A stretch of DNA of 64,000 nucleotides. Source: Rhodobacter ferrooxidans (GTDB lineage Bacteria; Pseudomonadota; Alphaproteobacteria; Rhodobacterales; Rhodobacteraceae). The notes beneath the pieces are model-generated. The model made no database searches. It was not told where the DNA came from and was given only the letters and a program-made list of their open reading frames with translations. Where the stretch lies: assembly GCF_000176015.1 (NCBI RefSeq), contig NZ_ACYY01000017.1, forward strand, positions 1-64,000, in the 5' to 3' direction. A program made the translations under genes and the position numbers. This document shows, one piece after another, positions 3 through 14,312 of this stretch. How positions within the stretch are numbered: the first letter of the stretch is position 1; the number at the start of each line of letters is the position of its first letter.

Positions 3-2669
3 CGCTCGGGCAAGGTCAGCTACATCGAGGGCAACCGCGACCATCCGGTGAACAAGGGGGTTCTCTGCGCCAAGGGCGCCAGCGGCATCATGCAGGTCAC
101 CGCGCCCTCGCGGCTGCGCAGCCCGCTGAAACGGGTGGGGCCGCGCGGCTCGGGGGCGTTCGAGGCGATCAGTTGGGACGAGGCGCTGGCGCTGGCGGTC
201 AGTTGGCTGAAGCCGCTGCGCGAAACCGCGCCGGAAAAGCTGGCCTTCTTCACCGGCCGCGACCAAAGCCAAAGCCTGACCGGATGGTGGGCGCAGGCCT
301 ATGGAACGCCGAACTATGCCGCGCATGGCGGGTTCTGCTCGGTGAACATGGCGGCGGCAGGCATCTACACCATGGGCGGCGCCTTCTGGGAGTTCGGCCA
401 GCCGGACTGGGCGCACACCAAGCTGTTCGTGCTGTTCGGCGTGGCCGAAGACCATGACAGCAACCCGATCAAGATCGGCATCGGCAAGCTGAAGGGCCGC
501 GGGGGCCGGGTGGTGGCGGTGAACCCGATCCGCACCGGCTATAACGCCGTGGCTGACGACTGGCTGGGCATCACGCCGGGCACCGATGGCCTGCTGATCC
601 TGAGCCTGATCCATTGCCTGCTGGCGGCGGGCAAGATTGATCTGGACTATCTGGCACAGTTCACCAATGCGCCGCTGCTGGTGGTGGAAACCGGCCCCGA
701 CAAGGGCATGATCGCGCGCAATGCCGAAAGCCAGCCCTTCGTGATCGACCGCCGCACCGGCAAGCCTGCCCCCTGGGATGGCAAGGGCGTGCAGCCCGAT
801 CTGGGCGCCAGCTTCCAGGGCAACCGCACGGTGTTCCAGCACATGGCCGAACGCTATCTGGCCCCGGAATTTGCGCCGGAGGCGGTGGCAGAGCGTTGCG
901 GCATCGCTGCCGACCGCATCCGCGGCCTGGCCGCCGACCTTGCGCGCGTGGCATTTGACGAGGCGATCGACATCGCCCAGCCCTGGACCGATTTCCGCGG
1001 CAACCATCATGCGTCAATGCCCGGCCGCCCGGTGTCGTTCCACGCCATGCGCGGCATCTCGGCCCATTCCAACGGTTTCCAGACCGCCCGCGCCTTGCAC
1101 CTTTTGCAGATCGTGCTGGGCACGGTCGAGGTGCCCGGCGGTTACCGCTTCAAACCGCCTTACCCCAAGCCGGTCGAGGCGCATCCCACCCCGCATTTCG
1201 GCGTCACCCCCGGCAAGCCGCTGAACGGCCCGCATCTGGGCTATGTGCGCGGGCCGGATCAGTTGGGCCTGCACCCCGATGGCAGCGCCGTGCGCATCGA
1301 CAAGGCCTTCACCTGGGAAAACCCGCTGTCGGCGCATGGCTTGATGCACATGCTGATCCCCAACGCCCATGCCGGCGACCCCTACAGGATCGACACGCTG
1401 TTTCTGTATATGGCCAACATGGCCTGGAACTCGTCGATGAACACCGCCGAGGTGATGGCGATGCTGACCGACCGCGGGCCGGACGGCGAATACATCATCC
1501 CGCACATCATCTATTCCGACGCCTATGCCTCGGAAACCGTGGCCTATGCCGACCTGATCCTGCCCGATACCACCTATCTGGAACGGCACGATTGCATCAG
1601 CCTGCTGGACCGCCCGATCTCCGAACCCGATGCCGCGGGCGACAGCATCCGCTGGCCGGTGATCGAGCCGGATCGTGACGTGCGCGGTTTCCAGTCGGTG
1701 CTGCTGGACCTGGGCGCCCGGCTGGGCCTGCCCGGCATGGTGGCCGAGGATGGCAGCCCGAAGTTCCGCGACTATGCCGATTACATCACCCACCACATCC
1801 GCCGCCCCGGCGTCGGGCCGCTGATCGGCTGGCGTGGCGAGGACGGCGACAAGGAAGGGCGCGGCGAGGCCAATCCCGCGCAACTGGACCGCTATATCGA
1901 GAACGGCGGCTTCTATCAGGCGCATATCCCGGACGAGGCGCTGTTCTACAAGCCGTGGAACGCCGCCTATCAGGACTGGGCGGTGAAGACCTCGCTTTAC
2001 GAGACGCCACAGCCCTATCTGTTCTCGATCTGGTCGGAACCGATGCGGCGGTTCCAGGCGGCGGCGGAAGGCCTTGGCCCGATCCAGCCACCCGAGGCGC
2101 TGCGGGCGCGGCTGAAGCTGGCGATGGACCCGCTGCCGGTCTGGTATCCGCCGCATGGCGAGGATCAGGCGGCAGAATACCCGCTGCACGCGCTGACCCA
2201 GCGGCCGATGGACATGTATCATAGCTGGGGCAGCCAGAACGCCTGGCTGCGCCAGATCCGCGGCAAGAACGCGCTGTATCTGCCGACGAAGGTGTGGAAC
2301 GCGCAGGGTTTTGCCGAGGGCGATTACGCCCGCGTCACCTCGCCCACCGGCAGCATCGTGGTGCCGGTGGCGCATATGGCGGCGCTGAACGAACACACGG
2401 TCTGGACCTGGAACGCCATCGGCAAACGCAAGGCCGCCTGGGCGCTGGACGAGGACGCGCCCGAGGCCACCGCGGGGTTCCTGTTGAACCACCTGATCCC
2501 GGAATGTCTGCCGGGACCGGGGCGGCTGTCGAACTCCGATCCGGTCACCGGGCAAGCCGCCTGGTTCGACCTGCGGGTGAAGATCGAAAAGGTCGGTCCG
2601 CGTGACCATTCGGAACCCGCCTTCCCGCCGCTCCCGCGGGTGGTGCCGCAGGGGAGGGGCCGGGCATGA
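3..2669 (+). CDS. soeA: SoeA-like molybdopterin oxidoreductase, catalytic subunit (5' partial)
   Basis: Catalytic subunit of a DMSO-reductase-family molybdoenzyme, most likely the cytoplasmic sulfite:quinone dehydrogenase SoeABC (sulfite to sulfate). The reading frame is open at the window edge, so the start and the first three cysteines of the N-terminal [4Fe-4S] motif lie outside; the fourth is visible in VNKGVLCAKG (nt 66-68). The segment YGTPNYAAHGGFCSVN carries the Cys (nt 336-338) expected as the molybdenum ligand, and the C-terminal part has the molybdopterin-dinucleotide-binding domain. About 888 residues are visible, against roughly 950-1000 for the family. Genes for a four-cluster ferredoxin subunit and a DmsC/NrfD-type anchor follow, as in soeABC. 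Polysulfide or thiosulfate reductase is the alternative, but the overall sequence and the missing signal for export fit SoeA better. The family is firm; the sulfite substrate is inferred. Confidence 0.85.
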   Translation, partial: RSGKVSYIEGNRDHPVNKGVLCAKGASGIMQVTAPSRLRSPLKRVGPRGSGAFEAISWDEALALAVSWLKPLRETAPEKLAFFTGRDQSQSLTGWWAQAYGTPNYAAHGGFCSVNMAAAGIYTMGGAFWEFGQPDWAHTKLFVLFGVAEDHDSNPIKIGIGKLKGRGGRVVAVNPIRTGYNAVADDWLGITPGTDGLLILSLIHCLLAAGKIDLDYLAQFTNAPLLVVETGPDKGMIARNAESQPFVIDRRTGKPAPWDGKGVQPDLGASFQGNRTVFQHMAERYLAPEFAPEAVAERCGIAADRIRGLAADLARVAFDEAIDIAQPWTDFRGNHHASMPGRPVSFHAMRGISAHSNGFQTARALHLLQIVLGTVEVPGGYRFKPPYPKPVEAHPTPHFGVTPGKPLNGPHLGYVRGPDQLGLHPDGSAVRIDKAFTWENPLSAHGLMHMLIPNAHAGDPYRIDTLFLYMANMAWNSSMNTAEVMAMLTDRGPDGEYIIPHIIYSDAYASETVAYADLILPDTTYLERHDCISLLDRPISEPDAAGDSIRWPVIEPDRDVRGFQSVLLDLGARLGLPGMVAEDGSPKFRDYADYITHHIRRPGVGPLIGWRGEDGDKEGRGEANPAQLDRYIENGGFYQAHIPDEALFYKPWNAAYQDWAVKTSLYETPQPYLFSIWSEPMRRFQAAAEGLGPIQPPEALRARLKLAMDPLPVWYPPHGEDQAAEYPLHALTQRPMDMYHSWGSQNAWLRQIRGKNALYLPTKVWNAQGFAEGDYARVTSPTGSIVVPVAHMAALNEHTVWTWNAIGKRKAAWALDEDAPEATAGFLLNHLIPECLPGPGRLSNSDPVTGQAAWFDLRVKIEKVGPRDHSEPAFPPLPRVVPQGRGRA

Positions 2670-2675
2670 GAAACC

Positions 2676-2719
2676 AAATTCCTTCGAAGGAATTTGCAAA
2701 TCCTTTCCAAAGGATTTGC
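2676..2719. repeat. two adjacent perfect palindromes between soeA and soeB
   Basis: A 20-nt palindrome without a loop (AAATTCCTTC then GAAGGAATTT, 2676-2695) is followed directly by a second one, GCAAATCCTTT-CC-AAAGGATTTGC (2696-2719). The two units are close to reverse complements of each other, so the whole 44 nt could also fold as one longer hairpin. They fill most of the 73-nt gap between soeA and soeB and end about 11 nt before the soeB ribosome site. They may be a mobile palindromic repeat, an mRNA processing or stability hairpin, or an attenuator. Confidence 0.85.
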
Positions 2720-2742
2720 CGCCCCGCGCCGGAGGGTCGCGC

Positions 2743-3480
2743 ATGACCATGCTTCCCGCCAGCACCGAACGCCAGCTTGGGCTGGCGATTGATCTGGATA
2801 CCTGCGTCGGCTGCCAGGCTTGCGTTACCGCCTGCAAGGGCTGGAACGATCAGGGGCAGGGCGGGCCGCTGTCGGATCAGGACCCCTATGGCGCCGACCC
2901 TTCCGGCACCTTCCTGAACCGCGTGCACAGCTATCAGGTGCAACCCGCCGAGGGCACGGCGAAGATCATCAACTTCCCCCGCTCGTGCCTGCATTGCCAG
3001 GACGCCCCCTGCGTTCCGGTTTGCCCCACCGGTGCCAGCTACAAGCGGGCCGAGGATGGCATCGTGCTGGTCAATGCCGCCGCCTGCATCGGTTGTGGAT
3101 TATGCGCCTGGGCCTGCCCTTACGGCGCGCGCGAGCTGGATGCCGCCGCCGGGGTGATGAAGAAATGCACACTCTGCGTTGACCGCATCTACAACGAAAA
3201 CCTGCCCGAGATCGACCGCGAACCCGCCTGCGTGCGCACCTGCCCCACCGGCGCGCGGCATTTCGGTGACTTTTCCGACCCCGACAGCAAGGTCAGCCGC
3301 CTGTCGGCCGACCGCGGCGGCTATGCGCTGATGCCGGAAATGGCCACCCGGCCCACCAACCGCTATCTGCCGCCGCGCGCGAAAGATGCAGCGTCCACCG
3401 CCAGCCCGCTGGCGCCGCTGCTGGATATTCAGGCCAGCGGCTTTGCCGGTTGGCTCGACAAGGTTCTGGGGAAAATCTGA
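2743..3480 (+). CDS. soeB: SoeB-like iron-sulfur subunit (four [4Fe-4S] clusters)
   Basis: Electron-transfer subunit of 245 residues that passes electrons from the SoeA molybdenum centre to the membrane anchor. Sixteen cysteines form four ferredoxin-type groups: C21/24/27/31, C82/85/90/94, C115/118/121/125 and C142/145/163/167, the DmsB/PsrB/SoeB pattern. The ATG at 2743 is chosen because GGAGGG stands 7-12 nt upstream and the protein then begins just before the first cluster motif; the frame is open further upstream, but that part runs through the palindromic spacer. The gene lies 73 nt after soeA and 1 nt before soeC, so the three form an operon. There is no Tat or Sec signal, consistent with a cytoplasm-facing enzyme. 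Confidence 0.9.
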   Translation: MTMLPASTERQLGLAIDLDTCVGCQACVTACKGWNDQGQGGPLSDQDPYGADPSGTFLNRVHSYQVQPAEGTAKIINFPRSCLHCQDAPCVPVCPTGASYKRAEDGIVLVNAAACIGCGLCAWACPYGARELDAAAGVMKKCTLCVDRIYNENLPEIDREPACVRTCPTGARHFGDFSDPDSKVSRLSADRGGYALMPEMATRPTNRYLPPRAKDAASTASPLAPLLDIQASGFAGWLDKVLGKI

Positions 3481-3481
3481 C

Positions 3482-4357
3482 ATGCATCCGGCACCTTCCG
3501 TCATTCTGTTCACCGTGCTGTCGGGCCTTGGCTTCGGCTTTCTGGCGTTTCTGGGCGCGGGGCTTGTGCTGCCGCAGCCGGGGCTGAACGCGCTGCTGCT
3601 TTGGGGGCTGGGCTATGGCCTGGCGGTGGGCGGCCTGATGGCCTCGACCTTCCATCTTGGCAATCCGCGGCGGGCCTGGCGGGCGTTCAGCCAATGGCAG
3701 TCCAGTTGGCTGTCGCGTGAAGCCTGGGCGTCGCTGGCGGCGCTGCTGGCGCTGGCCCCGGTAGCGCTGTCGGACCTGCTGGGTCTGGGCTGGCCGCGCG
3801 GGTTCGGGCTGGTTGGCACGGGTCTGGCGCTGATCACGGTGGCCACCACCTCGATGATCTATACGCAACTGAAAACCATCCCGCGCTGGAACCATTGGAC
3901 CACGCCCCTGATGTTTGTGACCTTCGCGCTGGCGGGTGGGGCAATTCTGGCGGGGCAGACCGGAATTGCCTTGCCGTTGCTTGTGGTCTTGGCGCTGGCG
4001 CTGCTGGCGCATTGGCAGTTTGGCGACCGCCGCTTTGCCGAAGTGGGTGCCAGTCTTGCCACAGCCACCGGCCTGGGCCATATCGGCGCGCTGTCGGTGT
4101 TCGAGCCCGCCCATACCGCCGACAACTATCTGCTGCGCGAGATGATTTATGTGGTGGGTCGCAAACATGTACAAAAGCTGCGGGTAATTGCGCTGATCTG
4201 CACCGTGATGCTGCCCGCCGTTTTACTGAGCCTTGGCCAAGGCTTGCCGTTCGTCGCCCTGGCACTGCTGTGCCACCTTGCCGGCGCTTTCGCCGCACGC
4301 TGGCTGTTCTTTGCCCAGGCCGAACATGTCGTCGGGTTGTATTACGGCAAGCGCTGA
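3482..4357 (+). CDS. soeC: SoeC-like membrane anchor (DmsC/NrfD type)
   Basis: Integral membrane subunit of 291 residues with about eight hydrophobic helices, beginning with VILFTVLSGLGFGFLAFLGAGL at residues 6-27. The family is the DmsC-type anchor, which holds the catalytic and iron-sulfur subunits on the membrane and hands electrons to the quinone pool. Residues around STFHLGNPRRAWRAF and the histidines near GDRRFAEVG are typical of SoeC/DmsC proteins. It starts 1 nt after the soeB stop codon, so translation is probably coupled. No obvious terminator follows. Confidence 0.85.
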   Translation: MHPAPSVILFTVLSGLGFGFLAFLGAGLVLPQPGLNALLLWGLGYGLAVGGLMASTFHLGNPRRAWRAFSQWQSSWLSREAWASLAALLALAPVALSDLLGLGWPRGFGLVGTGLALITVATTSMIYTQLKTIPRWNHWTTPLMFVTFALAGGAILAGQTGIALPLLVVLALALLAHWQFGDRRFAEVGASLATATGLGHIGALSVFEPAHTADNYLLREMIYVVGRKHVQKLRVIALICTVMLPAVLLSLGQGLPFVALALLCHLAGAFAARWLFFAQAEHVVGLYYGKR

Positions 4358-12966: not shown

Positions 12967-14094
12967 TTAGCGGTAGGCGCGCAGATAGTGCCGCTCGAAG
13001 GCGCGTTTCAGCCAGTGCAACGGCTTCAGCCGCGGCAGCACTAGGTTCAGCTTGCCGCGGCGGAACACCAGCATGCCGCTGTCGAGCGTGTCCATGATGC
13101 AGACAAGCTCGGGGGTGAAGGCCTTGCCGGGCACCCGGCCTTGCAGTTCGGCCGCGATGTTGGCGGCGGCGGCGGCGGCCTGAAGGTCGGCCTGATGCGC
13201 CTGTTTCGGCATCCAGTCCGGGCCGGGAAAGCTGCCGGCGTCGCCTGCGACCCAGACCCCGGGGTGGCCTTCGACCCGGCACAGCGCATCGGCCTGCACC
13301 ATGCCACCGGGCGACAGCGGCAGGTCGCTTTGCGCCAGCCAGGCAGGCCCGGTCATGCCTGGTTGGAACAGGATCAGGTCGGCCGCGATCTCGCCGCCTT
13401 CGGTCACCACGCGGTCGGGGTCGATCCTAACCATCTTGTGGCCCAGATGCGTCTCGATCCCGCGCCGGGCAAATTCGGCCAGAATACCGTCCACCGCCTT
13501 TTCGCCCAGTCGCGCGCCGGGGCGCTCTGCCGGGCTGAAGAACACCAGCCGCACCGCATCGCGCCGCCCTTGCCTGCGCAGCAGCGTATCCAGGATGAAG
13601 GCGTATTCGAACATCGGCCCGCCGCGGATGGCCCCCGGTTCGGCGGGGTTGGTGGCCATGCCGATGGCGATGGTGCCCGAGGTCAGCGCGGCAAAGCGGG
13701 CGGCGATGGCTTCGGCCGGGGCCAGGCCTTCGCAGGGGATGATGGCATTGTCGATCCCCGGCAGTTTGCGCAGGAACCGCCCGCCGGTGGCGATCAGGAT
13801 GTGGTCGGCGGTGATCGGCCCGGCATCGGTCTGCACCGTGCGGCGGGCGGCATCCATGCCGGTGACCGAGGCCGTGAGATGCGTCACGCCATGGCGCGCA
13901 AAGAACCGCGCCAACGGAAGCCGCAGGCCCGCGCCGCTGCGCAAGCCCGCCGGGATCCAGATCGAGGATGGCAGGTAGTGCAGATCGTCGCGCGGCGCGA
14001 TCACGGTGATATCAGCCTGCACCTTGCGGCGGCGCAATTCGCGCACCGCTGTCAGGGCCGCGAAGCCCGCGCCGAGGATGGCAATATGTGTCAT
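12967..14094 (-). CDS. sulfide:quinone reductase-like FAD oxidoreductase
   Basis: A 375-residue flavoprotein of the SQR / flavocytochrome c sulfide dehydrogenase group. The FAD dinucleotide-binding motif is at the start (IAILGAGFAALTAVREL), the second FAD motif is GVWVAGDAGSFPGPDWMPKQAHQ near 279-301, and the C-terminus (LKPLHWLKRAFERHYLRAYR) is a basic amphipathic helix like the membrane-binding end of SQR. Cysteines are C121, C272 and C332. C121 and C332 fall where SQR has its first and last catalytic-site cysteines, but the middle one appears replaced in GAIRGGPMFEYAF. ATG 14094 follows GGGAAGCG. A perfect ATTC-N8-GAAT operator lies just upstream, which supports a sulfide or reactive-sulfur role; an unrelated quinone reductase remains possible. 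Confidence 0.75.
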   Translation of the reverse strand: MTHIAILGAGFAALTAVRELRRRKVQADITVIAPRDDLHYLPSSIWIPAGLRSGAGLRLPLARFFARHGVTHLTASVTGMDAARRTVQTDAGPITADHILIATGGRFLRKLPGIDNAIIPCEGLAPAEAIAARFAALTSGTIAIGMATNPAEPGAIRGGPMFEYAFILDTLLRRQGRRDAVRLVFFSPAERPGARLGEKAVDGILAEFARRGIETHLGHKMVRIDPDRVVTEGGEIAADLILFQPGMTGPAWLAQSDLPLSPGGMVQADALCRVEGHPGVWVAGDAGSFPGPDWMPKQAHQADLQAAAAAANIAAELQGRVPGKAFTPELVCIMDTLDSGMLVFRRGKLNLVLPRLKPLHWLKRAFERHYLRAYR

Positions 14095-14112
14095 GGCGGT
14101 TTCGCTTCCCTT

Positions 14113-14134
14113 TATATTCAAGAAAATGAATATA
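14113..14134. promoter_or_regulatory. inverted-repeat operator (SqrR/BigR type) before the SQR-like gene
   Basis: TATATTCA and TGAATATA form a perfect 8-bp inverted repeat around AGAAAA. Its core ATTC-N8-GAAT (14116-14131) is the consensus described for the sulfide-responsive ArsR-family repressor SqrR of Rhodobacter capsulatus. It lies 19 nt upstream of the SQR-like start codon and about 180 nt from divergent soxB, so it most likely controls the former. Confidence 0.75.
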
Positions 14135-14312
14135 ACAGCATTGCAGCGCTTGGGCAAGCGCCGTGGCTGCGGCGGCGCGACACGGGCCACCGAAAGTGCC
14201 TGGGCAGCCGAAAGCGACAGCATCTGTCGTCCGCAGGCTGGCTTGCGCCGGGATGGGCTTGCAAACCTGTGGCAAAACGGTTCACTGAGGCCGGTGTGAC
14301 AGGAGCGGCAGC

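Follow-up and report, generated by a model that had tools for sequence, protein, structure and literature searches.

A putative SqrR operator in front of a predicted type VI sulfide:quinone oxidoreductase gene in Rhodobacter ferrooxidans

The motif ATTC-N8-GAAT was deduced as the binding site of SqrR in Rhodobacter capsulatus, and a similar site is included in the footprint of YgaV (PMC9774250). SqrR is released from DNA upon formation of a tetrasulfide link (PMC9995734). RNA-seq of R. capsulatus showed that rcc02679, a gene said to encode an uncharacterized flavin disulfide reductase, is more than 10-fold up with sulfide and in the sqrR mutant, and its deletion left SqrR-dependent transcription unchanged (PMC9995734). 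The trxC gene of R. capsulatus is also SqrR-controlled, and the primer trxC R1 spans ATTC-N8-GAAT just before the ATG (PMC10044876), as seen when its reverse complement was read by hand. TrSqrF of Thiocapsa roseopersicina is a type VI sulfide:quinone oxidoreductase (SQR); enzymes of this type oxidise sulfide at high concentrations and have a single C-terminal helix as a stated trait (PMC9666304).

The window studied here is a stretch of 64,000 nt from Rhodobacter ferrooxidans. It carries a perfect inverted repeat, TATATTCA-AGAAAA-TGAATATA, at 14113-14134, exactly at the position given in the initial annotation. The repeat extends further than described there and is perfect over 9-bp arms separated by a 6-nt spacer, TTATATTCA-AGAAAA-TGAATATAA (Table 1). 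The ATTC-N8-GAAT core that had been proposed for this palindrome was confirmed and equals the R. capsulatus SqrR site (PMC9774250). As reported, the site is located before an SQR-like gene, here called sqrF, with a gap of 18 nt between the 14113-14134 repeat and the ATG. A sigma-70-like match, TTGCCC-17-TATATT, was the sole one in the surrounding 1.6 kb (1 found, 0.3 expected). By this consensus match the operator overlaps the target promoter and covers its -10 box. TTG followed by 17 nt and TACATT or TATATT could also be read by eye in the orthologue promoters L062-L066.

Table 1. Coordinates of the features discussed (window positions unless a locus is named).
Feature	Position	Strand	Description
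Operator	14112..14135	.	9-bp arms, 6-nt spacer; ATTC-N8-GAAT core at 14116-14131; core kept before orthologues
Promoter-like site	14129..14157	-	-35 TTGCCC (14157-14152), 17-nt spacer, -10 TATATT (14134-14129) inside the operator
Shine-Dalgarno-like GGGAAG	14105..14110	-	10 nt before the ATG; predicted from the sequence
Start codon of sqrF	14094	-	ATG
sqrF	12967..14094	-	Predicted type VI sulfide:quinone oxidoreductase, 375 aa; sequence and model comparisons
RND adaptor loci outside L143	L201, L204, L205, L206		

A palindrome of this kind could lack a repressor, having arisen by chance or acting as a hairpin in the mRNA. For perfect 8-6-8 repeats, 1.7 are expected per 64 kb (8 were found in the window), and the core was found twice in the window versus 0.89 expected and, by pattern search, at 26 sites in the 3.51-Mb genome. 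Several of the inspected genomic sites are in or near unrelated genes, and the core alone was therefore rejected as evidence. The second core of the window, at 2678-2693, was rejected as an SqrR site because it is part of another palindrome family. Members of this family, AAATCCTTCGAAGGATTT or near variants, occupy 2675-2719 between the molybdoenzyme and FeS genes, and palindromes of this type were found at 31 genomic places at two mismatches or fewer, compared with 0 for the reversed control.

Footprinting used 80 flavoprotein orthologues, all taken from named genomes. The exact core was present in nine of ten Rhodobacteraceae orthologue promoters (L062-L070 and L073, 71-88% identity; it was absent from L067), starting 30-61 bp upstream of the match start, while shuffled promoters gave a core rate of 0.0026 per 250 bp (0.26% expected). 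These ten loci include near relatives (two R. capsulatus and two Sinirhodobacter) and do not represent ten independent events. Conservation reaches the Rhodobacteraceae orthologues at 71% identity or more and not beyond: no site was found before the sqrF genes at 51-58% identity (L035-L037), nor before most orthologues outside the Rhodobacteraceae, and a related repeat, TTCA-N6-TGAA, precedes two Rhizobiales orthologues. The genes next to sqrF are sarcosine oxidase genes in the window and in L062, and an aminotransferase and a MATE gene in R. capsulatus. Since the flanking genes differ while the site stays, the site is linked to the flavoprotein gene itself. The site thus stands above chance because its core is kept before orthologues, because the palindrome overlaps the -10 box and because the same core precedes other sulfur and redox genes. 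The nearly constant position of the core in promoters whose flanks diverge, its place on the -10 box and the absence of any terminator-like site in the operator region make a chance repeat or hairpin extremely improbable.

The flavoprotein had been assigned only loosely to the SQRs. By sequence search its closest solved relative is the SQR of A. ferrooxidans (E 5e-29), and its AlphaFold model (pLDDT 95.7) matches the A. aeolicus and A. ferrooxidans SQRs with Z 43-44 and an rmsd of about 2 A over 366 residues. The three conserved cysteines of type I SQR (SqrA) were not all found: Arg157, which is invariant in 60 orthologues, takes the place of the catalytic Cys160 of A. ferrooxidans, and Arg195 aligns with the type I His198 when the alignment is read by eye. 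No NCBIfam model matched the flavoprotein at the level of SqrF, and the top match was far below its cutoff. A different assignment was found with TrSqrF. Locus L127 of T. roseopersicina DSM 217 encodes a 375-aa protein that has C121, V331, C332, I333, F366 and W369 at the published TrSqrF numbers. With 58% identity to this protein, the window protein retains C121, V331, C332, I333 and F366; W369 is replaced by His, as in 26 of the 60 orthologues, across which C121, C332 and I333 are invariant. In the AlphaFold model the C-terminal domain is short, with a single helix at 357-372. Because of this identity, these TrSqrF residues and the single C-terminal helix, it is concluded that the predicted activity of the flavoprotein is that of a type VI SQR (SqrF), by which the loose assignment becomes a firm one.

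Even with the regulation read correctly, the enzyme could still be a reductase of persulfides or disulfides that uses NAD(P)H, in line with how rcc02679 has been described. The top Pfam family of the flavoprotein is only the general Pyr_redox_2, and the missing type I cysteine would fit such an enzyme. This is quite improbable given the identity to a protein whose residues match those of the characterised TrSqrF, the conservation of the quinone-site residues I333 and F366, the single C-terminal helix and a second domain that aligns with SQR over its full length (GP..E(Y/F)). The type VI SQR assignment is therefore kept below.

The orthologue in R. capsulatus was compared with the described SqrR-controlled genes. 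A contig of R. capsulatus DSM 1710 carries, in this order, sqrF, MATE and the genes for cytochrome b561, cytochrome c', a methyltransferase and polyphosphate kinase 2 (PPK2). In two other papers rcc02683 is named as a methyltransferase and rcc02684 as PPK2, and counting back from these two genes leads to sqrF as rcc02679. On the assumption of the same order in SB1003 and DSM 1710, the R. capsulatus sqrF orthologue is thus very probably rcc02679. The transcript measurement with and without sulfide that the initial annotation proposed would then already have been made in R. capsulatus, where it came out in favour of sulfide control. A second PPK2 gene of R. capsulatus was rejected as rcc02684, as no methyltransferase ORF was recognised beside it, and none of the papers searched mentioned the genes rcc02676-02682 other than rcc02679. 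Among 22 Pyr_redox_2 loci examined in the R. capsulatus genome, a near-perfect upstream site was found before sqrF only; a core search of the PF07992 loci gave one other core, which by eye looks like part of a tRNA. A strongly SqrR-controlled and so far uncharacterized gene of R. capsulatus thereby receives a new and likely identity as a type VI SQR.

A search for an SqrR/BigR homologue, as proposed in the initial annotation, identified one close SqrR homologue in the genome, encoded at C52:688-1041(-) (127 bits, E 2.7e-36 against chain 6o8k). We take this chain to be R. capsulatus SqrR, the record itself saying only 'ArsR family'. C49 and C115 of the homologue align with the sensor cysteines C41 and C107 of R. 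capsulatus SqrR, and the DNA-reading stretch RQAAVSQQLARLRLEGLV is identical to that of 6o8k. The best match of the homologue among the other ArsR-type proteins of the genome has E 4.5e-5. Against the BigR equivalog model NF040642 of NCBIfam it scored 85.3 bits, below the curated cutoff of 155 bits. Of the proposed SqrR/BigR type, the SqrR part could therefore be retained, the regulator being nearer to SqrR than to BigR.

The suggested search for further ATTC-N8-GAAT sites also found them before sulfur genes. The core precedes sqrR, trxC (which in this genome encodes a Trx with a Zn-ribbon), genes for a cytoplasmic and an exported rhodanese, a YgaP-like membrane gene and an RND adaptor gene. 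The type I SQR gene has a weaker upstream variant with three mismatches to the longer repeat. Conserved autoregulation of sqrR was not supported, since the site before sqrR is not kept in relatives. Together, the SqrR homologue and the further sites support the earlier placement of the SQR-like gene in a sulfide or reactive-sulfur regulon, as a prediction from sequence.

ArsR-family operators have A+T-rich imperfect repeats in common. Together with the further HTH_5 proteins encoded in the genome, this raises the question whether the repeat could serve another ArsR/SmtB-type repressor, such as a metal or arsenic sensor. The genes that bear the core here are sulfur and redox genes and not metal genes, a single close SqrR-like protein with an unchanged DNA-reading stretch was found, the core is the one deduced for SqrR (PMC9774250), and the R. 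capsulatus orthologue, as identified via gene order, responds to the loss of sqrR. Another repressor of this family is thus very improbable, and it is concluded with high confidence that the palindrome is the operator of a persulfide-sensing SqrR-type ArsR repressor, encoded elsewhere in the genome, on contig C52, which would control sqrF.

Footprinting of the SqrR site could be used to extend the regulon, with the RND pump and the exported rhodanese as candidates. At the RND locus L143 (G000:C42:52000-60000), a perfect ATATTCA-N6-TGAATAT at 3910-3929 precedes an HlyD-type adaptor gene, which is followed by an RND pump gene. The core was found before the RND adaptor in five of seven Rhodobacteraceae genomes examined (this genome and four of six relatives), and also in R. 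capsulatus (L150). In G016, G024 and G161 no more than about 6 kb separates the RND adaptor from the sqrR homologue. The conserved RND pump is therefore a candidate member of the SqrR regulon. At about 3695-4160 of the exported rhodanese locus L144 (G000:C30:20500-28500), ATTC-N8-GAAT is located directly upstream of the gene, whose product has an apparent export signal.

By analogy with R. capsulatus, we infer that in Rhodobacter ferrooxidans SqrR binds the operator and sulfide induces sqrF. Reduced SqrR would sit on the operator and block RNA polymerase as long as sulfide is absent. Once per- and polysulfides arise from sulfide by oxidation, a polysulfide bridge would link the two sensor cysteines of SqrR, the bridged repressor would leave the DNA and sqrF would be transcribed. 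SqrF would then pass electrons from sulfide via FAD, with Cys121 and Cys332, to the quinone pool. It is probably the high-sulfide arm beside the type I SQR, which has its own weaker site. A wider scheme, in which one persulfide switch drives a two-step defence with type I SQR at low sulfide, type VI SQR at high sulfide and the RND operon exporting per- and polysulfides or products, is put forward tentatively and considered rather doubtful. The likely identity of rcc02679 opens a question to direct test, namely whether one persulfide sensor serves both SQR types, type I and type VI, each at its own sulfide level.

The window was also said to carry a sulfite dehydrogenase. At 48-4357 it holds genes for molybdopterin, FeS and DmsC-type subunits, a cluster that is compatible with SoeABC, and no NCBIfam model reached its cutoff there. 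In other genomes, sqrF orthologues adjoin genes for cytochrome bd, YeeE/YedE-type, BigR-like, rhodanese and MBL-fold proteins (names given partly by eye). Apparent cytochrome bd subunit genes were seen by eye next to sqrF in Xanthobacter and Burkholderiales (L081, L094, L095, L097, L104, L108, L112 and L115), where a chain from sulfide to oxygen is possible. A gene for a BigR-like regulator lies 1-2 kb from sqrF in L082, L087, L088 and L090 (three strains of Rhodopseudomonas and a Rhizobiales MAG), and in L082 a rhodanese gene directly follows sqrF.

Compared with known systems, sqrF is a predicted new member of the known SqrR regulon, and the individual pieces are already known from relatives; what would be modestly new is that a single persulfide switch, judging from the sites, governs SQRs of two types, together with the likely identity of rcc02679 and the RND pump as a candidate member. 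The R. capsulatus SqrR regulon has the same repressor family and the same core, and shares rhodanese and trxC with the set found here. Its orthologous flavoprotein is 74% identical, with a site that ends 11 nt before its start codon. It differs in its neighbouring genes and in that rcc02679 is called an uncharacterized disulfide reductase, whereas the protein is assigned here to type VI SQR. SqrF of T. roseopersicina (DSM 217) resembles the window protein in overall identity, in both cysteines, in V331, I333 and F366 and in the one C-terminal helix, but not at W369, and its gene has no SqrR operator within 250 bp upstream, whereas the window sqrF has one. BigR of Xylella and Agrobacterium and YgaV of E. 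coli are likewise persulfide-responsive ArsR repressors, but they act mainly on the blh operon or ygaVP, and the regulator found here falls outside the BigR equivalog.
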